A stretch of 64,000 nt of DNA from Azorinus chamasolen (lineage: Eukaryota > Mollusca > Bivalvia > Cardiida > Solecurtidae): NCBI GenBank assembly GCA_963576725.1, contig OY755244.1, positions 31,841,876 to 31,905,875 of the forward strand, in the 5' to 3' direction. Numbering within the stretch: the first letter of the stretch is position 1; each line of letters begins with the position of its first letter. Shown here piece by piece: positions 16,641 through 64,000 of this stretch. A program made the position numbers and the translations under genes. The notes under the pieces were generated by a model. The model searched no databases. It saw only the letters and a list, made by a program, of their open reading frames with translations, and was not told where the DNA came from.

Positions 16641-19450
16641 ATGAATACTTCTGCTCAAAACTTGGAACTATGTACAAATGGTATGATAATTGGTCATTTG
16701 AATATTCAAGGGTTACGAACCAAATTTGATGAGCTACAGTTAATACTAAATTGGAATAAAATAGATATCTTTGGTATTACAGAAACAAAAATCAACCAAA
16801 ATCATCCTACGGAAAGTTTTGCAATAAATGGTTTTCAAAATGGTATCCCATTCGTAAGGATAGAATACAGGATAAAGGTGGAGGGATACTTATATATCTT
16901 CGGGATAACATAAATTGTACTCGTAGAAATGATTTGGAGAGTTCTGATTTAGAAAGTATCTGGCTGGAAATAAAAAGTATAAATTCAAAATCCTTTCTAA
17001 TTTGCATATTGTATAGACACCCGAACTTGCTCTAATCTTGGAAAAAATATTTTGATGATAATTTAGAAATAGCTCAACTTGAAGATAAAGAATATTTGGT
17101 TCTTGGTGAATTCAACAAAGATATCATGAATAGTCGTATAAAAGATGAATGGATTAATTACACATCATCTCTTGGACTTTCTCAACTAGTATCTAATCCA
17201 ACACGTGTTTTTAGTGCTTCAAAAACTTTAATCGACCATATTTATTCAGATAACTCTCAGAATAGTATTTGGACATCAGTTCCAAGGTTAGGTATAAGTG
17301 ACCATTATCCAATTTCTTGTTCAAGAAAAATGGACCATAAATACAAAAAATTAAAGCACCATGCTATAAAATACAGATCTTTTAAATATTTTAACGAGAA
17401 TGATTTTCCTGAAGATTTAGGAAAGATAGACTTCAATGATGTTATGTTTATTACTGATGTCAACAAGGCGTTGAAACCATTTATGGCAAAACGTTTCTTC
17501 TGTTATTGATAAACATGTACCCCTGCGTCATCATAGGGTTAAAGGACTAAACAGCCTGACTAGTTAACTGGAGAGATTCTTGATAAGAAAGAGATAAATT
17601 AAAATTAAGAAATGATAAAACAAACTATAAATTATACAGAAATAGAGTATCCAATTTAATTCATAATGCAAAGAAAAAATCATATGAAAAGAAAATTTCT
17701 GAAGGACAAAACAACCCGTCTTCTATTTGGAAATTATTCAAAGAATTCAGGTCACCTAAACAGGATAAGTGTTTTTTGTTAATAGCCTTTTTGTAGATGG
17801 TATTGATATAACTGAACCTGATCTGATGTCAGATGAGTTTAACACATTTTTCACAAATATTGCAGCCTAACTGAAAGAATCAATTCCTTCTTCCGATTTT
17901 ACTGATGTTAAAAAATGTGTTATGTTCAATATTCCAAATTTTGGCAAAGAAAAGGTAAACAATATGCTTTTGAATTTAAATATTTCTAAGTCAACTGGCC
18001 TAGATGAAATTGGTCCACGGATTTTAAAAATATCAGCTAACTTGATATACCCAGTAATTCATCACATACTTAACCGTACTATATCACAAAGTGTATTCCC
18101 TGAGACTTGGAAATCTGCAAAGGTCACTCCATTATTCATATCAGGGTCTAAACAAGATGTAAATAACTACAGGCCTATCTATATACTTCCTACTTTATCC
18201 AAGATACTAGAGAAACATGTTCATGATAGTTTTATGAATTACCTTAATCATTATAAGCTTATCATTCAAACTCAAAGTGGGTTCAGAAAAAACCATAGCT
18301 GCGAAACCGCCCTTGTACATATTATAGACAAATGGCTAAAAGCAATCAATGATGGGTATAATGTAGGGGTAGCATTCGATTTGGTTGATCATACTATTCT
18401 TTTACAAAAATTAAGCATTTACAAATGTTCAAAACGTTCTTTAGACTGGTTTAAATCCCACTTGTAAAGCAGAAAACAAACTGTTTCTCTAAACGGAGTT
18501 ACATCTTCAGAACAGAACATATCATGTCGTGTGCCTCAAGGCGTTATCCTCGGCCCACTAATGTTTTTAGTTTTTATAAACGATTTGCCTCTTTCACTCT
18601 CAGCAGAAATAAGCAAAATTGACATGTAAGCAGATGACACTACTATACATTATATCTATTACTCATTGGAAACTGTAGAAAGAAACCTTCAAATCTTGAA
18701 ACATGGTGTAACTCAAATGGAATGATTCTTGATACTGATAAACCCAAAGTACTATTGATTACTACTCCTCATAAAAGGACACGGCTTACAAATAGTTATT
18801 TGTCTTTGACTTTCAAAAATGTTGTTCTTAAGTTATCCAAGGGAGAAAACATTATTGGGAGTAAGTCTCAACGAAAATCTTTATGGGATGGCCATATCAA
18901 TAAAGTAAGAAGAATACTTTCAACAAATATATGGTTGTTATCTAGAATCAAATGGTATGTTCCACTTCATTCTAGAATCATATTTTATAATGCCTACATT
19001 CAACCTCATTTAGATTTTTGCAATATTGTTTGGGAAAGTTCAAACACAAGCAGTGCCCATGGATTATTTTCATTTCAAACAAGAGCCTGCAAAATTATAT
19101 TCGGTACAGATTACGTATCTGTGTCGCAATCATTAGAGAACATGAACTGTCTGACTTTTTCTGACAAGGTTATTTTGCAGAAGGCTAAGTTTATGTATAA
19201 AGTATCTAAAGGATTAGTTCCGACTTATATTAACAATATGTTCGAAAACGAAACGAAAATTTACAACAGTTTACGATCATCAAGTTCAATAAATTATAAA
19301 ATACCTCGCCCAAAATTAGAACTTTTTAAACAAAGTATATCATACTCAGGACCGTCAATATGGAATAAAATACCAGAAACAATAAGAACCATGAAAACTA
19401 TTGATAGTTTTACTGTTAACTTCATTCGCTGGTTGAGATCTCAACGATAA
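16641..19450 (+). pseudogene. CR1-like LINE ORF2 (endonuclease and reverse transcriptase), broken
   Basis: Would nick target DNA and copy the LINE RNA there. The AP-type endonuclease runs 16641-17510: IIGHLNIQGL, ITETKI (Glu), LGEFN where GDFN is usual, and SDHYPI (Asp-His) at its end. The reverse transcriptase runs 17922-18710: NYRPIYILPTLSKILEK, QSGFRKNHSCETAL, then a shortened motif A (VGVAFDLVDHTIL, several residues lost including the usual catalytic Asp), [20 protein letters not shown], and motif C in which the Tyr of YADD is a stop (TAA at 18628). The C-terminal thumb-like region (18722-19450) is open and ends WLRSQR. At least one frameshift (near 16850) and several stops make it inactive. 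Confidence 0.8.
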
Positions 19451-25209: not shown

Positions 25210-28200
25210 ATGGCCGAGAAAAGTAATGATCCAGATGTAGAATTTCTCTGGCGCCACTTAGAGGAGCTAGAGAAAGACAATGCGTTGCTGAAGATGCAAT
25301 GTGAGATCAACGATTTAGAACGCCAGCTACAAAGTGCAAACATAAATCCTTCCAGTCAAGCAGAAGGAAAGCGTCGTTTTAAGACAGAACTGCCTAGCGA
25401 AATGACTAGTACACCCAAGCCTAGAGTCACATTTCCAAATACCTCTAAGCAAACCCAATATACAGAGATGCAGGCTAGAGGAGGATTACCGGTGGTAGAC
25501 CCATCTAGACGAGACATGTCTAGAGTAGGCCAGTCTAGGGTAGATATATCTACGGTAGACCCGTCTAGACTAGATAGGTCTATAGTAGATCTACCTAGAA
25601 TAGACCAATCTACAGTAGATCCACCTAATGTAGGGTCATCTACAGTAGATAGATCTAGGTTTGATGAGTCTAGAGAAAATCATGCACACCAACAGTCTAC
25701 CAAAGCCAGATCAGCTATGGTCAAAGCTGCAACTTACGATGGGACCAGCTCTTGGCTTGATTTTAAAGCACACTTCGAGACATGTGCTGAGATCAATGCA
25801 TGGAGCTACACCGAAAAGGGTCTGTACTTAGCTGTGTCCCTGCGTGGACAAGCACAGGGTGTATTCGGAAATCTGTCCTCTAATTCAAAGGACTACGACT
25901 CATTGACTAAGGCTTTGGAAGAACGTTTCGCCCCTCCTAACCAAACAGAACTATACAGAGTACAGCTGAGAGAAAGGCGCCAAAAAGCCTCAGAAACACT
26001 TTCTGAGCTAGGTCAAGACATAAGACGCTTAACCAATCTAGCCTACCCATCTGCTCCTGCAGATCTCAAGGAAACATTGGCCAAAGAGCAATTTGTAGAC
26101 TCTTTGATAAACGTCGACATGCGTTTGAGAATAAAACAGGCTAGACCTGTTAGCCTTAATGATGCTGTTCGCCATGCAGTTGAGTTGGAAGCCTTTAATA
26201 GGGCAGAAAAGGCTAAGTTGCAGAATCAAGGTATCATTGGCTCTGCAGAGCTAATATCTCAAACAATAATGCCAGATAAACCTGATGAGGTTACCTTGTT
26301 GAAGTTACAAGCCAGCCTAGATAGGCTGGAAGAAAAATTCAATGCTATGCAGCAAAACAAAAGAGCTGAAAATAGCGGGAGGTTTGAACAGCAGAAGCCT
26401 ATAAGGACCTGTTATAGATGTGGCTCAAAATTTCACCTCCAGGCCAAGTGTCCTAAAAACAAAAGTCAGACTAGAAGATCCCGTGACCAAGTTTCAAAGA
26501 AACATGATGAAAACAAGAAAAAGGAAACGGAATCTTCTAAAGCCAATTCTATCGGCTCTGGCTTAATGCTCCCAGTACAGTTCGGAGATCAATCTCTGAA
26601 TTGTTTGGTTGATACTGGTGCAACTTTAACTGTGCTGTCATCTCGAGTATGGGATGCATCTCCACAGAGCAAACAGGGCATGTTGACAGAGTATAATAGG
26701 ACTCTGGTCGCGGCCTCAGGTACCCCTCTCGAGGTAAGAGGACGAACAAAAATTATGTTAGGAATATATGGAGACACTTATGAGACCGATGTAGTAGTAG
26801 CAAATGTAGAAAATGACCTGATGATGGGGTTAGACTTTCTGGAACGTTATGAGTGTAGCGTGGACGTAGCTAAAAAGACTCTGCATGTACAGGGCAAGGA
26901 AACAAGCTTGAACTGTGAAGGTTCTATCGGATGCTATAGGATCTCTATAGCCAATGATGTTACTATCCCCGCAAGGTCAGAAATAGTTGTACAAGGTCAG
27001 ATCCCCATGATGTTCAAGAGTAGTAATCTCTACCTTGTAGAGCCGTCTGAAAGAATGTTACAGTCAGGAAAAGGGTTGCTGGCTAGATCATTGGTACATC
27101 GAAATACTTCTGTACCTGTAAGACTCTTGAATGTATCTGAGGAAGACCAAATACTTCAAAAGGGCACCCAAATAGGCCAACTGAGCCCTGTTGATGAAAG
27201 TAGATGTAGGTCGTTCGTGCCCATTACCAATCCTATGCCTGCTCACCTTAAAGACTTATATGAGCGGACTGTAGAGGGCATGTCTCCAAAGCAATGCGAG
27301 GAAGTTAGAAAACTCTTGATAAAGTACTCTTCAGTCTTCTCAGAGACTGATGAGGATCTAGGAAGAACTGGCATAGTGAGACATAGAATTGACACGGGTG
27401 ACGCGCATCCAATTAAACAACCTTTGCGCAGACCCCCTGTACACATGAACTCTGAAATAGACAAACAGATAGATGATATGCTATCAAAGAAGGTAATACA
27501 GCCTTCAAAAAGCCCTTGGAGTAGTGGCATTGTCCTCGTGACAAAGAAAGATGGTAGCAAACGCTTCTGCGTAGACTATCGCAAACTGAATGATGTAACA
27601 GTCAAAGACTCCTACCCCCTGCCGAGGATTGATGACTCCTTGGAGCAACTGGCTGGTGCGCAGTGGTTCTCTTGCATAGATTTGAATGCCGGGTATTGGC
27701 AGGTGGAACTGGAGGAAGCAGACCGACGAAAGACTGCCTTTAACTCAAGACGAGGTCTCTTTGAGTTCAAGGTCATGCCATTTGGGCTGTGTAATGCCCC
27801 TGCAACCTTTGAGAGGTTGATGGAATCGGTGCTGGCAGGCCTAAACTGGCAAATTTGTTTAATATACCTGGATGATGTAATCGTCCATGGACGGACATTT
27901 GAAGACATGATATCAAATCTGGATAAGGTCTTCGATAGACTGCAAGAGGCAGGACTAAAGCTTAAACCAAGAAAATGCCAGTTATTCTGTAAGGAAGTAT
28001 TCTATCTTGGACACGTTGTGACATCTGAAGGCGTGAAAACAGATCCACAGAAGACGCAAACTGTGCGTGACTGGATAGAGCCAAAGAATGTAACTGAAGT
28101 AAGATCCTTTTTGGGTCTTTGCAGCTACTATCGTAGATTTATCTGTGGGTTTGCCACAATTGCAAAACGGTTACATCGACTGACAGAGACAGGGGTGAAA

Positions 28201-30972
28201 TTTGAATGGACAAACGAATGCCAACGTGCATTTGAGCAGCTCAAACAGAGTTTGTGTGCGGACCCTATTCTCGCACATCCCGATTTCACTAAAGAATTCA
28301 TACTGGATACTGACGCCAGCGACTTTGGAATTGGGACAGTTCTCTCCCAGGTACAAGATGGGCATGAGCGAGTAATAGCTTATGCCAGCAAATCTTTGAC
28401 AAAATCAGAAAGAAGGTACTGTGTCACAAGGAAGGAGTTGTATGCACTAGTACACTTCGTAAAGTACTTTCGACATTACCTCTATGGGAAACAGTTCACT
28501 GTAAGGACTGATCATGGATCTCTACGCTGGCTAATGCAGTTTAAGAACCCTGAAGGCCAGCTAGCCAGATGGTTAGAGGTATTGTCAGCTTATAATATGA
28601 AAATTCAACATCGCCCTGGAAGGAGACACGGAAATGCAGATGCACTCAGCAGAAAACCCTGCAAGCAATGCGGGATGACAGGCCAGCAGTCTGCTGAAGG
28701 TCACCAAGTGAACCAGGTTGATGTGCAATCAAACAATGATTGCACCAACCTCAAGGAAGCCCAAGAAAAAGACCACGACTTGACAAAGCTGCGACAATGG
28801 CTTAAAGAAGGAGAGAGACCTGCTCGGAAGACGGTAGGCTGTGAAAGCTTTTTCTTGAAAGCATTACTTTGTCAGTGGGACAGGTTAGAAATGCGAGAGG
28901 GCATTATTGTCCGGCGCTGGGAAGTTTCCGGCACTAGCATAGTCAACTGGCAAGGTATTGTACCGATGTCAAATAGGAGAGAGGTTCTAAATACCTCACA
29001 TGACATCAAAGCTTCTGGACACCTCGGTGTGACAAAAACTCTTAGTCGAATCAGACTTGGCTATTACTGGCCGGGAATGCAGAATGATGTTAAAACTTAC
29101 ATCAGCGGCTGCCAAGCGTGCACAAAACGAAAAGACCCGACAAAAACGAAACGAGCACCAATGGAAATAGTAAGAAGTGGCTTCCCTATGGAAAGGATTG
29201 CCATTGATATTCTGGGAGACTTTCCTCAGACCGAGAAAGGCAATAGGTATATCCTTGTCATTGGTGATTATTTCACCAAATGGATGGAATGCCAAGCAAT
29301 GCCTAACATGGAAGCACGAACGGTGGCAACTATCTTGATAGAACAAGTCATATCTAGGTTTGGAGTCCCTAGGCGAATACACTCGGATCAAGGGCGCCAG
29401 TTTGAAAGTCAACTGTTTGCTGAAATGTGCCGCATGCTTCAAATCGAGAAAACCAGAACGACACCGTATCATGCTCAATCTGATGGCATGGTAGAGCGGT
29501 TTAATAAGACCTTGGTGGCCATGCTTAGCGCATTTGTCAATGAGCACCATACCGACTGGGACGAGCATCTTCAGATGGTAATGATGGCCTATAGGTCCGC
29601 TGATCATGAGACTACTGGTTTTACTCCTAACATGTGCATGCTTGGCCGAGAGACTAACTGCCCACTTGATCTGATGTACGAGATGCCACCTGCTATTAAG
29701 CAGGTCCCTCTGAACCAGTGGGTCTGGGAGCTCCAGGAAAGAATGGAGTTGGCTCACAAGATAGTCCGAGAAAACACTGGAGAGGCAATGAAACGACAGA
29801 AACACTATCATGACAGTAAACTGTCATTTGATTCCTTTGAGGTAGGTGAGAAAGTTTATGTTTTCTTTCCGGTAAAGAAAGTCGGATGCTCATCTAAGCT
29901 GACATCCTACTGGAGAGGGCCCTATGAGGTGAAAGAGAGAATCTCCGATGTGCTGTACAAGGTACTGTGCGGTCGTTCAGGTAATCCCCAGGTGATCCAC
30001 TGTGATCGAATCCGAAAGTGCAAAGCTCAAATTCTACCTGGTGAGGAGTTTGTAGAGCAGTTACCAGAACCTGAGCACGAAGTAGAGAGACCCTACACAC
30101 CAGACTATCAGGTAAATTTTCGGCAAAGTAGACGAGAACGACGTAAGCCTGAATGGTTAAGTGATTACGTTTCCTCTCTTTTCAGTAACACAGAGATGCC
30201 AAAGACAAAGATGACAGAGAGAACGGCCAAGTTCCTGTGTCCAAAGTGTAAGGAGACGCTGACATCTCCTGAGGAATATAAGCATCACATTGACATTTGC
30301 GTGATGAGTTATGTAGGCTGCGACATCTGCCAAAAGACATTCAGCAACAAGAAGTATTACCTGCAACATGCTAGAAGAATGCATCCTGACAAGATCGAGG
30401 AGAGTGGATCTAAGGAGATCGAATCTGTCAGGAGCAAGGATAAGGCCGAGGCAGGCATTGAGAGTGATTGGCAAGATGAGTCTGATTATGAGCTCTCTGG
30501 AGGTGAAGAAAAGGTGGTAGAAATAGAGAAAGAGGAGGATCTGTTGGTAGGTCGCGTGGTATGTAAAAGGACTGCTCCCTCGCCTGTGACAGCACCAAAA
30601 AGGAAACTGTCTACACCAAGTGTGGTGGCTGCACAAGACGAGTCGAGTCCATCATGCAGCGGCTTGGGAGAACAAAGGGCTGTGGAAAAGTCAGCTAGAC
30701 ATGAGGAACCTGTGCCAAACGTGGCTAAAAAGGTTAAGGAAGTGAGAGTTACCTGTCGTAACAATATTGAAGGACAGAGGAAAAGAAGAGACATTGTCGT
30801 GGAGGAAGTGGATGGTGAAGAGTTGTACTCATCCAGGGTGAGCTGTCGAAAGCTTGATACTCAAAGGTTCAACCTTGGTGAGATAGTTGGAGGAGGAAGC
30901 ATTGATATGCAGGATGTGAATGTGATCATGGACGAGGAAGGACAGTTCCTCCTGGAGATTAGATACTCCTAA
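25210..30972 (+). CDS. Ty3/gypsy Gag-Pol polyprotein with C-terminal zinc fingers
   Basis: One uninterrupted 1920-residue frame, so gag and pol need no frameshift. In order: N-terminal coiled coil (~10-40); low-complexity Ser/Asp/Arg repeats (~96-157); retroviral-type capsid region (~170-340); CCHC knuckle CYRCGSKFHLQAKC (401-414); aspartic protease LVDTGAT (Asp 468); reverse transcriptase with FCVDYRKLND and YLDDV (Asp 888, 889); RNase H DTDASDFGIG (from ~1033); integrase with HHCC region (HDIKASGHL...CQACTKR) and catalytic Asp 1333, Asp 1393, Glu 1429 (35 residues between the last two). After the integrase tail come two zinc fingers: CPKCKETLTS... (1677-1697, C2HC) and CDICQKTFSNKKYYLQHARR ending in His 1725 (C2H2). 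A charged tail follows. The ATG at 25210 is 48 bp after the primer-binding site and is the natural start. Confidence 0.93.
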   Translation: MAEKSNDPDVEFLWRHLEELEKDNALLKMQCEINDLERQLQSANINPSSQAEGKRRFKTELPSEMTSTPKPRVTFPNTSKQTQYTEMQARGGLPVVDPSRRDMSRVGQSRVDISTVDPSRLDRSIVDLPRIDQSTVDPPNVGSSTVDRSRFDESRENHAHQQSTKARSAMVKAATYDGTSSWLDFKAHFETCAEINAWSYTEKGLYLAVSLRGQAQGVFGNLSSNSKDYDSLTKALEERFAPPNQTELYRVQLRERRQKASETLSELGQDIRRLTNLAYPSAPADLKETLAKEQFVDSLINVDMRLRIKQARPVSLNDAVRHAVELEAFNRAEKAKLQNQGIIGSAELISQTIMPDKPDEVTLLKLQASLDRLEEKFNAMQQNKRAENSGRFEQQKPIRTCYRCGSKFHLQAKCPKNKSQTRRSRDQVSKKHDENKKKETESSKANSIGSGLMLPVQFGDQSLNCLVDTGATLTVLSSRVWDASPQSKQGMLTEYNRTLVAASGTPLEVRGRTKIMLGIYGDTYETDVVVANVENDLMMGLDFLERYECSVDVAKKTLHVQGKETSLNCEGSIGCYRISIANDVTIPARSEIVVQGQIPMMFKSSNLYLVEPSERMLQSGKGLLARSLVHRNTSVPVRLLNVSEEDQILQKGTQIGQLSPVDESRCRSFVPITNPMPAHLKDLYERTVEGMSPKQCEEVRKLLIKYSSVFSETDEDLGRTGIVRHRIDTGDAHPIKQPLRRPPVHMNSEIDKQIDDMLSKKVIQPSKSPWSSGIVLVTKKDGSKRFCVDYRKLNDVTVKDSYPLPRIDDSLEQLAGAQWFSCIDLNAGYWQVELEEADRRKTAFNSRRGLFEFKVMPFGLCNAPATFERLMESVLAGLNWQICLIYLDDVIVHGRTFEDMISNLDKVFDRLQEAGLKLKPRKCQLFCKEVFYLGHVVTSEGVKTDPQKTQTVRDWIEPKNVTEVRSFLGLCSYYRRFICGFATIAKRLHRLTETGVKFEWTNECQRAFEQLKQSLCADPILAHPDFTKEFILDTDASDFGIGTVLSQVQDGHERVIAYASKSLTKSERRYCVTRKELYALVHFVKYFRHYLYGKQFTVRTDHGSLRWLMQFKNPEGQLARWLEVLSAYNMKIQHRPGRRHGNADALSRKPCKQCGMTGQQSAEGHQVNQVDVQSNNDCTNLKEAQEKDHDLTKLRQWLKEGERPARKTVGCESFFLKALLCQWDRLEMREGIIVRRWEVSGTSIVNWQGIVPMSNRREVLNTSHDIKASGHLGVTKTLSRIRLGYYWPGMQNDVKTYISGCQACTKRKDPTKTKRAPMEIVRSGFPMERIAIDILGDFPQTEKGNRYILVIGDYFTKWMECQAMPNMEARTVATILIEQVISRFGVPRRIHSDQGRQFESQLFAEMCRMLQIEKTRTTPYHAQSDGMVERFNKTLVAMLSAFVNEHHTDWDEHLQMVMMAYRSADHETTGFTPNMCMLGRETNCPLDLMYEMPPAIKQVPLNQWVWELQERMELAHKIVRENTGEAMKRQKHYHDSKLSFDSFEVGEKVYVFFPVKKVGCSSKLTSYWRGPYEVKERISDVLYKVLCGRSGNPQVIHCDRIRKCKAQILPGEEFVEQLPEPEHEVERPYTPDYQVNFRQSRRERRKPEWLSDYVSSLFSNTEMPKTKMTERTAKFLCPKCKETLTSPEEYKHHIDICVMSYVGCDICQKTFSNKKYYLQHARRMHPDKIEESGSKEIESVRSKDKAEAGIESDWQDESDYELSGGEEKVVEIEKEEDLLVGRVVCKRTAPSPVTAPKRKLSTPSVVAAQDESSPSCSGLGEQRAVEKSARHEEPVPNVAKKVKEVRVTCRNNIEGQRKRRDIVVEEVDGEELYSSRVSCRKLDTQRFNLGEIVGGGSIDMQDVNVIMDEEGQFLLEIRYS
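25494..25680 (+). repeat. CTAG-rich 15-bp repeats inside gag
   Basis: Codes for a degenerate five-residue pattern (for example VDPSR, VDISTVDPSRLDRS). At DNA level it resembles the LTR array at 24640-24900. The 15-bp period keeps the frame. Confidence 0.85.
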
Positions 30973-47499: not shown

Positions 47500-50400
47500 T
47501 TCTCTTGAGATCATATCATGAACATATAAGATTCAAAAGAAAATCTCACAAATGTCACCTAAATGTATCTACCCTAAAGAAGGAGTAACAATAAACTTCT
47601 TACAGCCTAACAGGAACCTCCTGTCATCTTAATGTATCCACCCTAAAGAAGGGGTTACATGAAACTCCTTACAGCGTAACAGGAATGTCACCTTAATGTC
47701 ACCTTAATGTATCCATCTTAAAGACGGGGTAACATGAGATTCCTTACAGCGCAGTGGGATTATCATGTCACCTTAATGTATCCACCCTAAAGAATGGTTT
47801 ACATGAAACTCCTTACAGCGTAACAGGAATCTCATGCCACCTTAATGTATCAAAGCTAAAGAAGGGGTAACATGAAACTCCATACAGCATGACAGGAAGC
47901 TCATGTCACCTTAATGTATCCACCTTACAGAAGGGTATCATGAAACTCCTTACAGCATGACAGGAAGCTCATGTCACCTTAATGTATCCACCTTACAGAA
48001 GGGTAACATGAAAATCCTTACAGCATGACAGGAAGCTCATGTCACCTTAATGAATCAAAGCTAAAGAAGTAGGTAACATGAAACTCCTTACAGCGTAGCA
48101 GGAATCTCATGTCACCTTAATGTAACTACCCTAATTAAAGGGTAACATGAAACTCGTTACAGCGTAACAGGAATCTCATGTCACCTTAATGTATCAAAGC
48201 TAAAGAAGGGGTAACATGAAACTCCATACAGCAGGTCAGGAATCTCATGTAACCTTAATTAAACATAGTTAAAAAGTGGGTAACATGAAACTCCTTCCAG
48301 CATGTCAGGAATCTCGTGTCATTTTTATGTATCCACCCTTAAGAAGGGGTTACATGATACTCCTTCCAGCATGTCAGGAATCTCGTGCCACCTTAATATA
48401 TCCATCATAAAGAAGGGGTCTTTTCCTGCTAGACTTTACTACTTTTTCATTTACATGACACTCGTTACAGCGTAAAAGGAATCTTAGGTCACTTAAAATT
48501 ATCCACCCTAAGGATGGGGTAATATGTAACTCACAGCGTTACGGAGTATCATGTCACCTTAATGTATCCACCCTAAAGAAGTGGTTACATGAAACTCCTT
48601 ACAGTGTAACAGGAATCCCAGGTCACCTTAATGTATCCCCCCTAAAGAATGGTTTACATGAAACTCCTTACAGCGTAACAGGAATCTCATGTCACCTTAA
48701 TGTATCAAAGCTAAAGACGGGGTAACATGAAACTCCATACAGCATGACAGGAAGCTCATGTCACCTTAATGTATCCACCTTTCAGAAGGGTAACATGAAA
48801 ATCCTTACAGCATGACAGGAATCTCATGTCACCTTAATGTATCAAAGCTAAAGAAGGGGTAACATGAAACTCCATACAGCATGACAGGAAGCTCATGTCA
48901 CATTAATGTATCCACCTTACAGAAGGGTAACATGAAACTCCTTACAGCATGATAGGAAGCTCATGTCACCTTAATGTATCCACCTTACAGAAGGGTAACA
49001 TGAACATCCTTACAGCATGACAGGAAGCTCATGTCACCTTAATGTATCCACCTTTCAGAAGGTTAACATGAAAATCCTTACAGCATGACAGGAAGCTAAT
49101 GTCACCTTAATGAATCAAAGCTAAAGAAGTAGGTAACATGAAACTCCTTACAGCGTAGCAGGAATCTCATGTCACCTTAATGTATCTACCCTTATTAAAG
49201 GGTAACATGAAACTCCTTACAGCATGACAGGAAGCTCATGTCACCTTAATGTATCCACCTTACAGAAGGGTAACATGAACATCCTTACAGCATGACAGGA
49301 AGCTCATGTCACCTTAATGTATCCACCTTTCAGAATGTTAACATGAAAATCCTTACAGCATGACAGGAAGCTCACGTCACCTTAATGAATCAAAGCTAAA
49401 GACGTAGGTAACATGAAACTTCTTACAGCGTAGCAGGAATCTCATGTCACCTTAATGTATCTACCCTAATTAAAGGGTAACATGAAACTCCTTACAGCAT
49501 GACAGGAAGCTCATGTCACCTTAATGTATCCACCTTACAGAAGGGTAACATGAAAATCCTTCCAGCCGGATAGGAAGCTCATGTCACCTTAATGTATCCA
49601 CCTTACAGAAGGGTAAGATGAAACTCCTTACAGCAGGTAAAAACCACTGTTGGGGGTTACATGAGACTCCTTACAGCAGGTCAAGAATCTCATGACACCT
49701 GGGTGAAGCAAAGCTAAAGACATGGGGGTAACATCTAACTCCTTCCAGCATGCCAGGAATTTCGTGTCAATTGAACGTATCCACCCTAAAGAAAAGGTAA
49801 CATGAAACTCCTTATACAGCAGGTAAAAACTAATGAAGGGGTAACATGAAACTCTTTACAGCAGGTCAGGAATCTCATTTCACCTTTAATGAATCAAAGC
49901 TAAAGAAGTAGGTAACATGAAACTCCTTACAGCGTAACAGGGATCTCATGTCACCTTAATGTATCTACCCTAATCAAGGGGTAACATGAAAATCCTTACA
50001 GAATGACAGAAAGATCATGTCACCTTAATGTACCCACCTTACAGAAGGGTAACATGAAAAGCCTTACAGCATGACAGAAAGCTCATGTCACCTTAATTAA
50101 TTAAAGCTAAAGAAGTGGGTAGCAGGAATCTCATGTCACGACCATAATTAAGGGGTAACATGAAAATCCTTACATCGTGTCAGGAAAGTCATGTCACCTT
50201 AATGTATCCACCTTATAGAAGGGTAACATGAAACTCCTCACAGCAGGTAAAAGCCAATGATGGGGTAACAGGAAACTCCTTAAAGCAAGACAGGAAGCTC
50301 ATGTCACCTTAATGTATCCACCTTACATAAGGGTAACATGAAAATCGTTACAGCTTGACAGGAAGTTCATGTCACCTTAATGAATCAAAGCTAAAGACGT

Positions 50401-51290
50401 AGGTAACATGAAACTCCTTACAGCGTAACAGGAATCTCATGTCATTTAAATAAGGGGTTACATGAAAAGCCTTACAGCATGACAGGGAGCTCATGTCACC
50501 TTAATGTATCCACCTTACAGAAGGGTAACATGAAACTCATTGTACAACAGGTAAAAGCTAATGAAACGGTTACATGAAACTCCTACCAGCATGTCAGGAA
50601 TCTCGTGTCACCTTAATGTATCCATCCTAAAGAAAGGGTAACATGAAACCTCTTGCAGCAGGTCAGAAATCGCATGTCATCTTAATGAAGCAAGGCTTTA
50701 GAAGTGGGTAACATGAAATTCCCTCCAGCATGTCAGGAATCTCATTTCACCTTAATGTAGCCATCCTAAAGAAGGTATTACATGAAACTCTTTACAGCGT
50801 AACAGGAATCTCATTACACCTTAATGTATCTACCCTAAATAAGGGGCAACATGGAACTCCTTACAGCATGACAGGAAGCTCATGTCACCTTTATGTATCC
50901 AATCTAAAGAATAGGTAACATGAAACTCCTTGTACAGCAGGTAAAAGCTAATAAAGGGGTAACATGAAACCCTTACAGCAGGACAGGAATATCATGTCAC
51001 CTTAATGAATCAACGTTAAAGAAGTGGGTAACATGAAACTCCTTCCAGCATGTCAGGAATCTCATGTCACCTTAATGTAGCCATCCTAAAGAAGGGGATA
51101 CATGAAACTCCTTACAGCGTAACAGGATTCGCATGTCACATTAATGTATCTACACTAAATAAGGGTTAGATCTAACATGAAATTCCTTACAACATAACAG
51201 GAAAATCGTGTCACATCAATGTATCCACCCTAAAGAAGGGTTACATGAAACTGGAATCTCGTGTTACCGTAATGTATGGATACACCCTAA
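47500..51290 (-). repeat. 69-bp minisatellite array, reverse orientation
   Basis: About 50 units reading TAACATGAAACTCCTTACAG, CATGACAGGAAGCTCATGTC, ACCTTAATGTATCCACCTTA. They are the complement of the unit at 41988-45240. Some neighbouring units share private variants (GGAAGCTCATG; the AAGTAGGTAAC junction), a sign of recent block amplification. Confidence 0.95.
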
Positions 51291-51458: not shown

Positions 51459-52324
51459 TAATGAAATTCGATAGTTCTGTATTACTTTACTTTCTAAACT
51501 GGCTATAATGTTATTTTACCTATGAATATTCAGTAGATATTGAAATCTGGAAAAAACAAAGAACAGAGAAAGGGTTAAAACTAGATCTAGAAACAATCTT
51601 ACCAGGACACAAATGTACACAAAGATACACATTTAAATGATTCCAGCAAATATTCCAATTATTTATCAGTTTCTAGGTATCCTGTAGAGAATTGATCGTC
51701 ACATTTTGGCGTTTTTCAAACAAGGTGGTGGCCACTGTCCGTCGTCCATTGCTTTCCTTTTAAATAGTAAAATCCCGCTAAAACGTAGCTATTTTTGGAA
51801 CGTTACTATATTTAGATGACACACAAAATGATGACATCACAAACACACAGAGGATACATGAAACACCGTCGATCTAGCGCGACCCAAAGTTATTTAGAAA
51901 TTATATGTTTTTCCTGTTAGCAAAAACTGAAAGTGATTAAAGATTCCACCCCGTTGGTTCTGTTCATCTGACCTTCTGTCAGACTGTCAATAACACGTTA
52001 TATTTTCAGCACGTGTTGTCGTTGTCCCATCAGATAATGAGCTGAAACTTGCTGTAGAGGTTCCTTATAAATAAGATCAGATATCGTTCAGTAGTATAAG
52101 GTTTAACACTTATCTCCGTGAATATTCAGGCAAGAAATAATGGCTTAATAAATACTAATTAACTACATTTATATAATGGCACTATGAACAAAAGAATGGC
52201 TTATCATGACAGAAACTAGAATCGAGTTTTAGAGTTACTACAGAAGAGTAGAATTATTTTAATTAATTAGAGAAGAGTGGTTTGGACTCAACACGCAAGT
52301 GTGTTTCAGACTCACTACAGAAAA
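51459..52324. other. non-coding; holds the right outer inverted repeat
   Basis: 51801-51890 is the inverted partner of 41703-41785 (contains GATCTAGCGC and CACCGTC). The rest is unassigned. Just before the Naiad element lie short duplicated pieces (ACTACAGAAGAGT / ACTACAGAAAAGT). Confidence 0.5.
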
Positions 52325-52777
52325 GTCGGATATCTGTACTATTTCATTTTTGTCGTACCCTTTATTACTTTTCTACAGTTACTCTGTTTGTAGCTCAATC
52401 ATTGAGTACACTAGCGATAGGTGGATACAGTATGTTCAATTAAATGTTTTTTTGTTATATATGCACTTTACCACTGTATTTGCTGTCACGGTTGTTGTAG
52501 ATTAGTCGGAGAGGGGATACGTTTATTTACACAGTTTGTCTTTTAGGATGGGGATGGAATAAGGGTGAGGTTGGGCGCCCATAAACCGGTTTAAACCCCG
52601 GTGACTTTTGTCACTGACCGTTCCAAGGCGGTACTTCCATCTTCCTCTTGTTTTGTCTTTGTGCGTCTCTTGTTGTTTTTTCTACCTATGTACATTTGCT
52701 GTTTCCTTGTGTTGCTGTTCGGGCGAGTGTTTGTTCTGTATGTGGTGTTTCCTGCATGACTCATTTTTGTACTTTTA
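52325..52777 (+). repeat. upstream pseudo-LTR of the Naiad element
   Basis: From GTCGGATATCTGTACTATTT to TCATTTTTGTACTTTTA. Near identical to 56169-56634 apart from a ~12-bp deletion near 52645. It starts in the 3' strand of the SECIS-like hairpin, so it carries only half of that structure. Confidence 0.88.
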
Positions 52778-53036
52778 TTATCACAACAGTGTTGCTTGTG
52801 CCGTGTGGTGGCCGTAAAAAGTCTCCCCGTACACGTAATCGATGTTGTTATCATTCTCTTGCAGGATATGCAAGTAACATACACAACTCTCATTCGCCTC
52901 TTACATCATCATAAGTATGTCATGCACCTCGTGGTAGGTGTTGTGTTCACCAACAATTTGATGCACTTGGTAGCTACACTAATGTAATTGACGTGTTGAT
53001 GAACACAATACAGGTGCCCCTCTATCACTTTCCAAT

Positions 53037-56000
53037 ATGAATAAAGTTAAAATACCTCGAATAGAACTAAAAGCTTTAAATATGCAATCTGTGTCGTCTG
53101 TACAAGTACCCAGAAATATTTCTAATTTCTCTTCCCTTCAACCTTTTGTTCGTTTAAAACAACTTAATCTTCAGTCGGCATCATCTTTTCACATACCATC
53201 TCTTTCTATTAATAAATGTTTTTTCAATGGACCAAGAGTTGTACTTTCACCTTTAAAATATGTTATCCAAAATGTTTCTTCTATTCGTAAACGGTCCTTA
53301 TGCAGGCGACACAGAGTGTATCCAATTATCCAAAAGTGCTTTGCTAAGAGGTGCATATGTTGTAGTAACATTTCTTGTAATTCCACTATAAAATCTACAG
53401 TTAATGGTAGAACATTTAATGTCAAGATAAACTCAGACGTTGATTGTACTACTACTAACGTTATTTATGTTTTAACTTGAAACGCGCCTAGTTGCGGTAT
53501 ACAGTACGTAGGACAAACAGGACGTGCTTTGAAAACTCGATTTCGTGAGCATGCATATCAGTGTCGAAATCGTAAACTAAACAATTTTTCATACCAACAC
53601 TTTCGGAAATCTGGCCATTCTTTTAAAGATGTTTTAGTTGAGCATATAACATATGATAAGGAGGCGACTAGTAGCTTTAAATCGAAAGCTAGATTTATAT
53701 CTGAATTAAATTGGATCAAAAAATTGCAAACACCTTTTCCTTTAGGACTGAATGATAATATTTACCAGACTGGAAATATTTCAAAAGAACCAGATTATAG
53801 ATATTTTTTCAATTTTTTCTATTAGAAAACGCAAATCTCGATCGCATGGCATTCGCAAAAATGGTAATATTAAACGAAAATCTCGTTTGAAAATGACTCT
53901 TCTTGATCTACATACTTTACGCCTAACTTCGGGTAAACATGCCATGCTTTCTAGACTTTCCTCCTTATCTATATGTTCATTAAAAGAAATTGACGAGCAA
54001 GCCGATAAAATTATTTTTCGATCAGATCCTCTCATAGGAACGGCTAGTTTGATACAAAGCTTTACTCTACATGTTCTCAGACCGCACATCGACAAATTAT
54101 CTGAACACCAAAGATTCTTCTTGAAAATTCCTTTTATTAATACAGGTATTGATTTTATTGACCTCCAAAGTATTTTTAGAGACAAAAATGTAATTGACAC
54201 TATTCCTAAATACTTTAAAAATACAGAACCACCTATCATCTGCTACAAATATAACAAACCCATCAGAAATACAATTTTCAACTATAATAAAATTGTGGCC
54301 GACCTTAATATTAATGATAATATTCCTGATAATTGAGATTGCGCCACCTCAAAATTTTGCTATTCTCCGGCTGGTCATGTGATTACTGGTAATTTTGAGA
54401 TAATTAAAGATAAACGTCTACGATCTCTTTTGAATAAAGGTCCCAAATATAGAATACCATCCTTGATAGATTTTAACTCTTGTCGAGTTCAGATTGCGGA
54501 GGCTTTACAAAATTTTAGTATTAAATGGTGTCGAAGAGAACATGTTGAGTCTAATGCCCTTTCTTGTTGGAAAAAACTAATTTTTGATATAATTGATAAA
54601 CGCATTTCCTTTTACAGCTCTAATAAACACCTTCTTCCACCTAAACCTAGAACTTCATTTAGACAACTTAAAAAGGGTTTACAGGATTTCCATTCAAAAT
54701 ACGTTTTTGTTCCTGCTGATAAGGCATCAAATAATGTGATTATTATTTGACGATTACATTATATCGATGTCTTGAAGCAGGAAATTATTAATACCAAGTC
54801 ATACATTTCAGTTACCACTGACGAAAAGACCATCATTTCAGACCATGTCAAAAAGTATGAACAATTTGGAACCGATATTAAAATTACACAACATAAACTT
54901 CCTACTATGTATTGGTTACCAAAACTACATAAAAACCCATATAAAGCGCGTTTCATTGCAAATTCTAGTTCATGTACAACTACTAAATTGTCTATACTTT
55001 TGACTTCTTGTTTAACGAAGGTAAAGGAACATGTAAAATTTTACTGCGATAAGACTTATGAAAATTCTGGAATAAATCTCTTCTGGTCTATTAAGAACTC
55101 TTCAGAAGTCTTAAACAAACTTAAGAACAAAAGGTATCTTGCATCCACTGTAAGCACGTACGATTTTTCTACTCTGTACACAACTCTTCCTCATATTTTA
55201 ATTAAGGATAAGCTTACTAACTTGATCCAGAAAGTATTTGCCCGAGAAAAAACATCATTCTTGGCATGTAATGCTGAAAAAGCTTTCTTTACTGACGAGC
55301 AAATGAAATATTACACCAATTGGACTTGCTCAGAAGTTTGCAAAGCACTAACCTTTCTTTTGGATAACATATTTGTACGTTATGGGAATGCTATATACCG
55401 TCAGGTAATTGGCATTCCCATGGGTACGAATTGTGCACCACTTGTCGCAGATTTGTTTTTGTACTGCTATGAGAGAGATTTCATGTTGAGTTTGAATCCT
55501 CAATCACAAGAAGATGTTATAAAAGCCTTCAATGAAACTTGTCGATATTTGGATGATATTTTTAACTTAGATAACCCTTTCTTTGATGCTCTGATTCCTA
55601 CAATTTATCCTAAAGAACTCAAATTGAATAAAGCTAACCCGTCCGACAATTATGCAGCGTTTCTTGACCTAGACCTTAAAATTAATAATGGAATGGGTTC
55701 TTCTAAAATATATGACAAAAGAGATGATTTTGATTTTAATATTGTAAATTTTCCTCATCTTGACGGGGATGTTCCCCGTGCTCCATCTTACGGTGTTTAT
55801 ATATCTCAACTTATTCGTTTTGCTAGAGCTTGTTCATCTACTATCGAAATCTCTCGCTTATTGGCAAGTACAAATGTAATCTCAAGGTACTTTTGCGACA
55901 CGGTATTTCACATCCTGAATTTTATGGTGATGTGATTTACAAACTTCGTAAAATTATTGGACATACCCATTTTCTCACTTTGTTCATCAAATATATAAAA

Positions 56001-56123
56001 CAATTCATTAAAAAGGGATATGATCCTGTATTACTACAAAAAACTGCATGTTTGGTTGTGAACCCTTTTACAGTTGGCAATCACGCTGGCCTCTTTGCAT
56101 GTACGCCGACAAGAAAGGTTTAG
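53037..56123 (+). pseudogene. Naiad GIY-YIG endonuclease/reverse transcriptase, putative selenoprotein
   Basis: Would cut target DNA and copy its RNA there. The first frame (53037-53800) has a basic N-terminus, a Cys-rich patch (KRCICCSNISC) and the endonuclease: VIYVLT, an in-frame UGA (53478-53480), NAPSCGIQYVGQTGRALKTR and REH, then a His-containing part (HFRKSGHS). Near 53795 one extra base shifts the frame. The second frame (to 55836) has a UGA at 54334 directly before DCATSKFCYSPAGH, where the clade's CxC motif is expected, and a UGA at 54748 after NNVIII. Reverse transcriptase motifs follow: YDFSTLYTTLPH (A), GIPMGTNCAPLVADL (B), YLDDI (C). An out-of-frame deletion at ~55837 precedes the C-terminal part (YYRNLSLIGKY to FACTPTRKV, stop UAG 56121). 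All three non-frameshift interruptions are UGA. Confidence 0.88.
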
Positions 56124-56185
56124 TACTCTATGAAGGCGACCTCTTAAATCCAGAAATGGAAGGAGAACGTCGGATATCTGTACTA
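56121..56185 (+). promoter_or_regulatory. SECIS-like selenocysteine insertion element (type 2)
   Basis: Helix I: UAGUAC (56121-56126) with GUACUA (56180-56185). A 4x4 internal loop follows. The core AUGA (56130-56133) faces GGAU (56172-56175), giving U.U, G.A and A.G pairs. Helix II is 11 positions long (56135-56145 with 56161-56171), with two mismatches in the middle. Bulged AAA is at 56146-56148. The apical ministem is UCCA/UGGA with a GAAA loop. These parts and spacings match eukaryotic type-2 SECIS elements. Helix I starts on the UAG stop codon of the reverse transcriptase frame. Confidence 0.85.
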
Positions 56186-56634
56186 TTTCATTTTTGTCGT
56201 ACCCTTTATTACTTTTCTACAGTTACTCTGTTTGCAGCTCAATCATTGAGTACACTAGCGATAGGTGGATACAGTATGTTCAATTAAATGTTTTTTTGTT
56301 ATATATGCACTTTACCACTGTATTTGCTGTCACGGTTGTTGTAGATTAGTCGGAGAGGGGATACGTTTATTTACACTGTTTGTCTTTTAGGATGGGGATG
56401 GAATAAGGGTGAGGTTGGGCGCCCATAAACCGGTTTAAACCCCCGGTGACTTTTGTCACTGACCGTTCCAAGGCGGTACTTCCATCTTCCTCCTATTGTA
56501 TGTTTGTTTTGTCTTTGTGCGTCTCTTGTTGTTTTTTCTACCTATGTACATTTGCTGTTTCCTTGTGTTGCTGTTCGGGCGAGTGTTTGTTCTGTATGTG
56601 GTGTTTCCTGCATGACTCATTTTTGTACTTTTAT
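56169..56634 (+). repeat. downstream pseudo-LTR of the Naiad element
   Basis: Repeats 52325-52777, including GGGCGCCCATAAACCGG, the hairpin GGTGACTTTTGTCACTG and TTGTTCTGTATGTGGTG. Confidence 0.9.
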
Positions 56635-56644
56635 ATCATATAAT

Positions 56645-57863: not shown

Positions 57864-58594
57864 ATAACAGCATGTGTCCCGCCTCCAAAAGGTTAACTAT
57901 AAACAGACAGCAAGTGTACTTAAATCCTTTATCCGATGAATAGTTTATGAAATGAATTAATAAGAATAGTATTGAAATGAAATCTTTAAATGGCATATGG
58001 GTACAAACTATTATGGTCGTGACTGGTCTCACTAATTACATAATATAAAGCATGTTAGTAACAGTTGCTATTAGGGATATCGTTGCTAGATATCACTATT
58101 TCAAGTGTACATGTGTGGACTATGGTGTTTTTTAATTTTAGCTAGCCGTTCAAACCGTGCGAAGTAGCATGTCTGGGATATAGTCAAACCGAAGTAGCTC
58201 GGTATCACTAAGTATTCCATTGTCACATAGGTGAACTAGGCCTGACATAAACTGTGTAAACATATCTAGGACCGCATGGTATTTCCTAAACAAATAAAGC
58301 AGGTCTTGGTCAGACATATATTATGACTGGTTCCGAAATTTTGCAGCACAACATCAAATGTAAATGGTGGTTGATGTCGTTCTCCAGCGTTTAAACCGAT
58401 CACCGTCAAACAACTGGGAATGTTAAGTTACGTATGCTGCTTCTTAATGTGACAACGGAGAAACATATTTTGATCGTTTTAATTCGTTCTTTGATAGTCG
58501 TTCTGTCTGCGCGAAATTGTCGTCTATTCCAATTTTCGGTTTAAACATATATTAGTTCTCGATATCATTCGCAATAAAATTACACAGTACAATG
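57864..58594. other. no recognisable feature
   Basis: AT-rich; no coding or repeat recognised. Confidence 0.4.
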
Positions 58595-58725
58595 AAAGAG
58601 TTTCTTCTGTCCTTAAGAGTATCTTCTGTCCTTAAGAGTTTCTTCTGTCCTTAAGAGTATCTTCTGTCCTTTAGAATTTCTTCTGTCCTTAAGAGTATCT
58701 TCTGTCCTTAAGAGTTTCTTCTGCG
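58595..58725 (+). repeat. ~21-bp minisatellite
   Basis: About six copies of TTTCTTCTGTCCTTAAGAG with alternating TTTC and TATC starts, which suggests a ~42-bp higher-order unit. Confidence 0.9.
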
Positions 58726-58893
58726 GTGCAATGTCAGCAGTGTTTCGGTGAATAACCTTTCCCTGTTCTATGTTTATTACAAATTTCAATACCTACTAAA
58801 TATTCATGGACACAATAGTCAAAATGAAATATGGAAGATGGAAGATTGCTACCATTTAAGACACAAAAGAAGCAGATCTATCAAAGTCCATTA

Positions 58894-60556: not shown

Positions 60557-61628
60557 ACGGTGTATGCATGTAAGGTTGAAAGGGTAAATGCATTAATTTT
60601 CAAACACTCCAAATACTTCTTTCTATGAATTCAGAACCAAACATAACAGCTGAATGAGTTTAATCTAAATAACATACGTTTACTGGTGCAAAAATATATT
60701 AAAGGTTGATTATAAATCAAATGCATGTTTTACTTTTGTTTGCATTTACCATGATCATTTTATGTCTGAGTCATTCGTTTTAAAATTTCCTTTGGCGCTA
60801 TGTGATCTGTTCAGTGTCGCAGTGCACTTACCTTGGGTGTCGCAGTACCCATGACCCAGTCAAACTAATACATTACTTTTCAGTACGGTGTCTTATCTTA
60901 CTCTTTAGTAAGTTATAGCATCACGTCTTGTATTTTCATTTTGGTGATATTGACCGAGTTTTTGTTTAAGCATTTACTCCATAAATACGCCTTTTTACGA
61001 ATTTGCAAACAGAGTAGACCCGTTATTTCATCCCAAATCATAACACTACCCCCTCAAAAGCGATCTCTTACCAGCAAGAAACTTTAAGCCAAAATCGTTC
61101 ACGTCGACGGCGGAAGACATGTACCCTTCCATCAATTAGTGGACATGCTAAGTTACATTTCACTTCAAACCATGATGCAAATGTTTCATTTGGTATAGAG
61201 TTTACTTGGCATCAAAGAAAAAGAAATATCCAAAGACACACGCTATATCTCAAAATCCAAGATGTCGACCATATTGAAAATCAAAGTTGTCCCATAACAG
61301 AAAATGCCTTGTCCTGGAACATAGATTTCAAGATTCAAGATTTTTTATTCATATCAAACCAGAAGGTCACAGACCCATGTGGCAACATTCACATAATGAT
61401 ATGACGGACAAAGCAATACTCACACATGCAAATAAATCAAGAAACATTCAAGTCTCTGTTATTCTTTACAAAACCATTATATATTAAGTCGTATAATTTT
61501 GGTTGCACTTAATGATGTACAAAGTGACTACATCTTTTACATGCACACGTAGTTTCAGAGAAGTGTCTTGAATGCTCACAACAAGATATGTTCAAACACT
61601 CTTTAAAATGCGTATACCTAACGCTATT
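60557..61628. other. mostly unassigned; possible LINE tail
   Basis: An FB-1a half ends at 61020 (GCAAACAGAGTAGACCC). 61318-61345 reads ATTTCAAGATTCAAGATTTT, the complement of a (CTTGAATC)n-type LINE tail. The rest is unassigned. Confidence 0.35.
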
Positions 61629-62077
61629 TAAAAGTACAAAAATGAGTCATGCAGGAAACACCACATACAGAACAAACACTCGCCCGAACAGCAACACAAG
61701 GAAACAGCAAATGTACATAACTAGAAAAAAAAAACAAGAGACGCACAAAGACAAAACAAACATACAATAGGAGGAAGATGGAAGTACCGCCTTGGAACGA
61801 TCAGTGACAAAAGTCACTGGGGGATTAAACCGGTTTATGGGCGCCCAACCTCACTCTTATTCCATCCCCACCCTAAAAGACAAACAGTGTAAATAAACGT
61901 ATCTCCTCTCCGACTAATCTACAACAACCGCGACGGCAAATACAATGGTAAAGTGCATGTATAACGAAAAAACATTTAATTGAACATACTGTATCCACCT
62001 ATTGCTAGTGTACTCAATGATTGAGCTGCAAACAGAGTAACTGTAGAAAAGTAATAAAGGGTACGACAAAAATGAAA

Positions 62078-62142
62078 TAGTACAGATATCCGACGTTCTC
62101 CTTCCATTTCTGGATTTAAGAGGTCGCCTTCATAGAGTACTA
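62078..62142 (-). promoter_or_regulatory. SECIS-like element of the second Naiad copy
   Basis: Base for base the same hairpin as 56121-56185, including the helix I arms, AUGA/GGAU core, AAA bulge and GAAA loop. Confidence 0.8.
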
Positions 62143-62455
62143 AACCGTTCTTGTCGGCGTACATGCAAAGAGGCCAGCGTGATTGCCAACTGTAAAAGGG
62201 TTCACAACCAAACATGCAGTATGTTGTAGTACTACAGGATCATATCCTTTTTTAATGAATTGTTTAACACATTTGATGAACAAAGTGAGAAAATTGGTAT
62301 GTCCAATAATTTTACGAAGTTTGTAAATCACATCACCATAAAATTCTGGATGTGAAATACCGTGTCGCAGAAGCACCTTGAGGTTACATTGGTACTTGCC
62401 AATAAGCGAGAGATTTCGATAGTAAAATTTAGAGAAAGTTTTTCTTAGTTTATGT
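62140..62455 (-). pseudogene. Naiad reverse transcriptase C-terminal fragment
   Basis: Reads HKLRKTFSKFYYRNLSLIGK, YGDVIYKLRKIIGHT and NHAGLFACTPTRTV followed by UAG. It is truncated at the 5' side; the codons further upstream (to 62538) are host sequence. It confirms where the C-terminus of the 52-56 kb copy should run and shows that part to have been lost there. Confidence 0.8.
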
Positions 62456-62939: not shown

Positions 62940-64000
62940 TCATATTGGATTATTGTACAGCGTATTGGATCTAATTGTAAAAGCTTTGTTTACAAATGTG
63001 CCTAAATTCTTAATGAGATGAGAATCACCAGAATTAACAAGTTCATTGAATTTATACATATTCGGTCGTTCCCAAAAGTATTTAGGCAATAATTGTTTTC
63101 TTAATTGAGTAAATAGGGAACATTGCAAAACAAAATGATCTTCGTCTTCTAAAATACCACAGATTAAACATTTTCTATCATTTATAGGTACACTAAGTGG
63201 CTTATTCCATCTGCCTGTTTCAATACAGAGTCTATGAGAACTTACTCTAAGACGGGCTAAACACTTTCTAATATTAGTAACATTCAATATATCTAGATAT
63301 GGTTGAAATCTAAAAATAGCAATACGACTGTAGAAGATAGCCCTACTAGAATTATGTAACCTGCCTTCCCAATTTTGAAAAAATTGGTCATTTATTCGTT
63401 GTTTGGTTAAAAGTAAAAATAGCTTTAAATCACCAACTGTTTGATTGTACCAAGCCTCGGGGCATCCAAGCCTAAAAAGTAAGTCTCTAACCAAGGACGC
63501 CCAATTAGTACGGTTTGGTTTGTCTAAAATATCCTGATATAATGTATTATATATAATTCTTATATACTTTTTTGAATTTGATTGTAATATTTTCAGCCAA
63601 TATTTAATAACAATAAAGTATCTATGATTTTGTAAAGGTGTTCGCCCTAATTCACCATATATGAAATCATTCTGAGTGCATTTTTTACCCCTAACAGCTG
63701 TTTACAAAACTGTAAATGAACTTTTCTCTAATGCATGTCCGGAGTGAAAACCCCACGTTTCGCATCCATAATTTAAAATTGGAAGCACTAATTTATCAAT
63801 TAGTTCTAGTTTATGTCTTACGTTAATAATTGTAAATTTACGTAGGTATTTATTTAATTTGAAAATAGCCTTTAAAGATTGACCAGCTAATGTACTTTGT
63901 GCTTCATTAAAAGATCCACCAGTTGTAAAAACCACACCAAGATAAACAAATTTCTTTACAATCTCGAGTTGTTCTCCTGCATATGTAAAACGAGTGGCAT
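62940..64000 (-). pseudogene. LINE ORF2 C-terminal part, clade undetermined (runs off the window)
   Basis: Open on the minus strand from the window edge: FVYLGVVFTTGG (end of the reverse transcriptase), the thumb-like region KLVLPILNYGCETWGFHSG, WYNQTVGDLKLFLLLTKQRI, and a zinc-binding motif CLICGILEDEDHFVLQC before the stop near 62940. One extra A in the AAAA run at about 63720 shifts the frame; otherwise it is intact. The catalytic reverse transcriptase motifs would lie beyond 64000. Clearly different from the LINE at 14-19 kb. Confidence 0.78.

Follow-up and report, generated by a model that had tools for sequence, protein, structure and literature searches.

Introduction

Penelope-like elements of the Naiad type, reportedly described by Craig, Yushenova, Rodriguez and Arkhipova in Mol Biol Evol in 2021, are said to include selenoprotein members that carry several selenocysteines and occur in clams and spiders. 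Selenoproteins are usually host enzymes, and their SECIS is usually placed free in the 3' UTR; bacterial-type selenocysteine hairpins lie directly after the UGA. A literature search found no paper on selenocysteine in Penelope-like elements, a result of little weight, as the search missed the 2021 Naiad paper too. In Penelope-like elements, partial copies give rise to pseudo-LTRs (PMC11167929).

Here, we analysed a hairpin located at the end of a retroelement frame in the window, which is the whole 64-kb stretch of DNA under study and forms part of a 1.72-Gb genome. The hairpin is very probably the SECIS of a high-copy Naiad-type Penelope-like retrotransposon, the uninterrupted copies of which would code for a protein containing three selenocysteines. 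This reading is based on structure, covariation, position, UGA codons conserved at cysteine columns, and purifying selection past the UGAs.

Results

Organization of the element in the window

The element in the window consists of an endonuclease part, a reverse transcriptase (RT) part, and a C-terminal part (Table 1). The three parts lie in different frames; this copy is broken and should not be expected to make the protein. The original prediction had taken the UAG as the stop codon of the retroelement frame and had placed it within the 5' strand of helix I. The UAG does occupy this position and ends the C-terminal frame, but the frame belongs to a broken copy, and the uninterrupted copies are located elsewhere in the genome. 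A pseudo-LTR arrangement with partial tandem copies is present, formed by a 474-column repeat. The partial copy at 52322 picks up the sequence only within the 3' half of the SECIS and thus carries half a hairpin.

Table 1. Features of the element, with coordinates counted from the first base of the window
Feature	Position	Strand	Evidence or remark
Upstream partial copy (pseudo-LTR)	52322..52783	+	96.6% over 474 columns; repeats the 3' region
GIY-YIG endonuclease frame, taken with UGA read through	53037..53822	+	Pfam GIY-YIG, E 8.6e-6
UGA site 1	53478..53480	+	Cysteine column of the endonuclease
Reverse transcriptase frame	53752..55841	+	Start overlaps the end of the endonuclease frame; 689 relatives at E <= 0.001
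UGA site 2	54334..54336	+	First cysteine position of the C-x-C motif
UGA site 3	54748..54750	+	Cysteine position in the RT part
C-terminal frame closed by the SECIS UAG	55830..56123	+	Open reading frame
Extended SECIS base stem	56107..56199	+	56107-56115 with 56191-56199; 56117-56118 with 56188-56189
UAG stop codon, 5' strand of helix I	56121..56123	+	TAG opens the hairpin in 64/70 copies
Type-2 SECIS hairpin	56121..56185	+	AUGA/GGAU core between helices I and II; AAA bulge; ministem capped by a GAAA loop
Downstream copy of the repeat at 52322..52783	56166..56638	+	Sequence comparison
Second element copy, 5'-truncated	61626..62424	-	96.1% over 799 columns
SECIS of the second copy	62078..62142	-	All 65 bases identical

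Pfam returned nothing for the RT or C-terminal pieces, and a sequence profile of the element protein gave 0 hits against PDB chains. The AlphaFold2 model of one uninterrupted frame (L034) had a mean pLDDT of 79.4 and a pTM of 0.60. When this model was used in a fold search, the 16 best PDB matches were all telomerase chains (E 2.5e-10 to 4.1e-6), with low TM-scores of 0.23-0.30 by query length. The RT is thus predicted to have a telomerase-like fold, as found by fold search only. In the 14 uninterrupted 1063-codon frames described below, GIY-YIG is located N-terminal to the RT within one ORF. The C-x-C position between the endonuclease and the RT would read U-D-C here and is C-x-C in relatives. 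An N-terminal GIY-YIG, a C-x-C linker, and a telomerase-like RT are reportedly the marks of the Naiad clade, and this domain layout suggests that the element is probably a Naiad-type Penelope-like retrotransposon.

The window also contains other repetitive sequences. An uninterrupted ORF of 1920 aa at 25210-30972 (+) resembles by eye an LTR retrotransposon polyprotein with RT, RNase H, and integrase, and the ORF remnants at 17096-19450 (+) and 62940-63494 (-) resemble by eye other non-LTR retroelements. A long satellite array with a repeat of ~69 bp occupies 48000-51250, and a tandem repeat with a 19-bp unit lies at 58577-58747.

Structure of the hairpin

Analysis of the 56121-56185 segment gave a fold of -18.8 kcal/mol (z -2.80), with equally good folds in 0 of 200 shuffles. 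Helix I is a 6-bp stem formed by UAGUAC and GUACUA, above which an 8/8 internal loop places AUGA (56130-56133) opposite GGAU (56172-56175). Helix II covers 11 positions, consisting of nine pairs and two mismatches, and the apex is composed of AAA at 56146-56148, followed by the 4-bp ministem and its GAAA loop. Among the traits of type-2 SECIS elements, the hairpin possesses AUGA on the 5' side and GA on the 3' side of the non-Watson-Crick core, the AAA bulge 11-12 positions above the core, and the extra ministem. The fold bears out the type-2 anatomy, the order of the parts, and the coordinates proposed in the original prediction.

Structural scoring, which had been suggested as a check, gave a full-length alignment with a modest score. 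Rfam SECIS_1 aligned to the hairpin over model positions 1-64 of 64 with 26.0 bits, below its gathering score of 35, which is a detection threshold and not a biological trait. The E value came to 0.0059 when a stretch of 401 bases was searched and to 0.94 over the whole window. SECIS_1 had only two matches at E <= 10 in the whole window, namely this hairpin and the identical hairpin of the second copy, and in the Rfam scan of the window no family reached its gathering score. A crude descriptor of the SECIS shape scored three other plus-strand sites in the window above 56121-56185, and the mean number of equally good sites per simulated 64-kb strand was 2.1 (30 simulations), indicating that this descriptor is not specific. 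The SECIS shape by itself is weak evidence, and the case rests on position and conservation.

Conservation and covariation of the hairpin

A first hairpin model, for which family-1 copies plus a single diverged copy were used, identified 70 hairpins in the window and loci L001-L063. Of these 70 hairpins, 67 retain AUGA, AAA, and the 3' GA together, while the core is altered in three (L008:2327, L015:353, and L018:3148), which are fragments or decayed copies. The diverged hairpins in the flanks of L062, L020, and L018 constitute a second family, with 40 of the 65 hairpin positions identical to family 1 and no gap. In both L062 and L020, the coding frame ends on the TAG with which the hairpin opens, and the hairpin base is rearranged in L018. 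The bare 65-nt folds of the diverged copies have z values from -1.3 to -2.2, and SECIS_1 had no match to the three second-family hairpins at E <= 5. A second hairpin model, run over 52 loci, yielded 53 matches, of which 52 belong to family 1 and one has an E value of 0.36, indicating no third family.

At L062, L020, and L018, the family-1 copies adjoin or sit inside second-family copies, forming a nested record of two insertion waves.

The stems were further compared in two alignments. In alignment A3 (16 matches, 13 distinct), which was fitted to the structure and includes one chimeric row (L015:353), pairing holds in 94.3% of the 247 cells, and 15 cells are doubly changed, versus 0 to 4 doubly changed cells in slid registers. 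None of 500 shuffles reached the observed paired cells, doubly changed cells, or covariation score; the observed number of doubly changed pairs was reached in 17 of 500. Alignment A5 is a MAFFT alignment of 18 hand-picked hairpin rows over 96 columns, leaving out L015:353, L018:3148, L008:2327, L011:2327, and L005. It contains 8 pairs and 15 cells with changes on both sides, a level as high as which was found in 0 of 500 shuffles; slid registers gave 1 to 5 doubly changed pairs, and slide +3 still gave 5. The core is invariant in the 18 picked rows of A5, compared with 67/70 over all hairpins. The ministem varies by paired changes in both alignments. Since most of the double changes stem from one diverged family at three loci, they represent few independent events. 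Compensatory change among copies and a core that does not change freely had both been put forward as checks of the hairpin; the stems do change in pairs, as the 15 doubly changed cells of A3 indicate, and the core is not free to change.

UGA codons at cysteine columns

The copies of the element were identified by searches covering the 1.72-Gb genome. The C-terminal piece gave 34,749 first-look candidates, and 149 of the 150 that were scored are without an internal stop. With the relative P0003 as the query, there were 45,366 first-look candidates, and every one of the 58 scored matches carries exactly two TGA and one TAG. Thirty of these 58 loci were retrieved. All 30 contain a frame that exceeds 600 codons, has UGA at both site 2 and site 3, and runs up to the TAG that opens the hairpin. 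Uninterrupted 1063-codon frames starting from MNKVK were found in 14 among the 30 loci, and in each of the 14 the only internal stops are three UGAs. The combination of a SECIS and in-frame UGAs within one mobile element, as claimed by the original prediction, is found in uninterrupted copies, with the three UGAs of all 14 frames at cysteine columns.

Comparison of these UGA positions with 90 relatives revealed a mixture of cysteine and tryptophan. In the numbering of the 1063-codon frame, sites 1, 2, and 3 correspond to columns 148 (W12 C3), 436 (C27 W4 Y1), and 574 (C15 W9). When W is left out of the denominator, 26 of the 1063 columns are cysteine-majority, so that all three UGAs would fall in such columns by chance with a probability of 1.3e-5. 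Similar residues are found in the listed relatives: for the RT (120 of 689), site 2 has C14 W5 Q1, and site 3 has C36 W13 and four further residues; for the endonuclease (120 listed), site 1 has W13 C4 P1. These counts include single misaligned residues (P0037, P0047, and P0177). Chain ends also coincide with the UGA sites: among the 120 listed RT relatives, 6 stop immediately before site 3 and 32 start no more than a few codons past it, and among the 120 listed for the endonuclease, 6 stop immediately before site 1. The W at these columns probably reflects UGA translated with table 4 by a gene finder; in support of this, P0003, with W at sites 2 and 3, matches copies with two UGAs. For the relatives, we infer UGA from W or from chain ends of the proteins alone. 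Two further cysteine columns, 106 and 137 (alignment A4, L034 frame), hold the same C/W mixture in relatives, and four endonuclease relatives (P0130, P0145, P0167, and P0198) end exactly before the cysteine of column 137, suggesting that the wider family may have up to five exchangeable Cys/Sec sites. Columns 669 and 684 also have both C and W, but they are mixed, mostly hydrophobic positions.

These results bear on two other explanations. In one, the hairpin arose by chance and the element has decayed, with UGAs that are ordinary decay mutations and a likeness to a SECIS that is coincidental. Such an origin would suit the broken window copy, the frequency of SECIS-like shapes in simulated strands, and the sub-threshold Rfam score, but it is contradicted by the covarying stems and by the uninterrupted copies that combine the same UGAs with a conserved hairpin. 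The presence of the UGAs in 58/58 scored matches and 14/14 uninterrupted frames, at cysteine columns, rules it out, and we give it virtually no credence. In the other, the UGAs are read through by a near-cognate tRNA and the hairpin serves another use, for example as an RNA mark that is bound by the RT and starts reverse transcription. PMC11167929 lends this some ground, describing Penelope-like RTs that use structured RNA and one characterised element that starts reverse transcription within a stem loop. We consider readthrough of this kind quite improbable here, since a SECIS core is present and is kept in nearly all hairpins while the stems vary, and the UGAs replace cysteine specifically, which fits selenocysteine.

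A bacterial-type selenocysteine hairpin was also considered and is ruled out, as the nearest of the three UGAs lies 1.37 kb upstream of the hairpin.

Relatives of the element were absent from the viral contigs searched. A search of genome contigs gave three distant loci, L001, L002, and L003. L001 has Cys at site 3, and L002 has Cys at both site 1 and site 3 and reads C-S-C at the site 2 motif, where BLAST itself gaps; L003 covers no site. Neither hairpin model found a SECIS in L001-L003. The three loci are bacterial MAG contigs with pieces of animal-type Penelope-like elements, and the occurrence of such pieces in bacterial MAG records is probably due to host contamination.

Selection past the UGAs

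Comparison of L034 and L062, which represent the two families, across 111 codons close to the ORF's 3' end revealed 81 identical residues and 238 of 333 identical bases, with differences distributed over the three codon positions as 25, 14, and 56. Over the same codons, dN is 0.18 and dS is 2.85, the latter being saturated. This stretch is located past all three UGAs and has been under purifying selection as protein.

The selenocysteine reading can be compared here with a third explanation, in which the hairpin was formerly a true SECIS, this host no longer decodes it, and the copies survive as relics. Although many copies are truncated or broken, the 14 uninterrupted frames among 30 loci and the nearly identical hairpins suggest recent activity, and the constraint past the UGAs is strong, making a relic highly improbable.

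Overlap of the hairpin with the stop codon

The limits 56121-56185 of the original prediction hold for the hairpin itself, yet the structure is longer than was listed. The extended fold of 56105-56200 has a z value of -4.02, and the corresponding folds of L020 and L062 have values of -4.92 and -5.73; no significant extended stem was found in the L032 variant (z -0.41). The 5' strand of the extended base stem lies inside the last codons before the stop. In alignment A5, the extended-stem column pairs 8-90, 10-88, and 13-85 are changed on both sides. Taken together, the extended folds and the double changes in the extended stem indicate that, in two families, the base of the SECIS takes up the stop codon together with some bases of the codons just before it.

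Considering the size of the ribosome, a ribosome at the stop codon should cover part of the hairpin. It is conceivable, though in our judgement unlikely, that the SECIS acts as a switch across the end of the ORF, in which the base stem formed with the stop codon and coding bases is unwound by each terminating ribosome, making UGA decoding self-limiting. In such a switch, folding of the SECIS would become rarer as the amount of full-length enzyme rises, and the output of a high-copy retroelement would be capped and tied to the selenium supply of the host.

Discussion

The hairpin of the window is best explained as the SECIS of the retrotransposon, and a pathway may be proposed for its use. Located at the very end of the ORF, the SECIS would bring in SBP2 of the host, together with the selenocysteine elongation factor carrying tRNA-Sec. 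At sites 1, 2, and 3, UGA would then be decoded as selenocysteine, at positions that hold cysteine in relatives, and translation would yield the full-length enzyme, with the UAG serving as the true stop. SBP2 recruitment and selenocysteine incorporation are inferred from eukaryotic selenoprotein synthesis in general.

If the three UGAs are read as selenocysteine, the transposition of an abundant retroelement would be tied to the selenium machinery of the host. The element also fills databases with fragments, since entries for its relatives are either broken off at the UGA sites or show tryptophan at them. The SECIS folded over a stop codon allows the interplay of termination and selenocysteine decoding to be tested.

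Compared with the canonical Penelope/Poseidon elements, as portrayed in PMC11167929, the element has in common GIY-YIG together with a predicted telomerase-like RT, as well as pseudo-LTRs and partial tandem copies. GIY-YIG is C-terminal in those elements and N-terminal here, and they are described there as carrying a hammerhead ribozyme, whereas none was found at the gathering score in the window. With host type-2 SECIS elements (Rfam RF00031), the hairpin shares the AUGA/GA core, the AAA bulge, the ministem, their spacing, and a full-length model alignment, but its score is below the gathering score. The closest likeness is to the selenoprotein Naiads as reportedly described, with which the element has in common the N-terminal GIY-YIG, the C-x-C linker, the predicted telomerase-like RT, the pseudo-LTRs, a very high copy number, and several in-frame UGAs at cysteine positions. 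The kind of element is already known, and the overlap of the SECIS with the stop is its unusual part: in comparison to host SECIS elements (Rfam RF00031), the base stem of this element overlaps the stop codon and the last codons of the frame.
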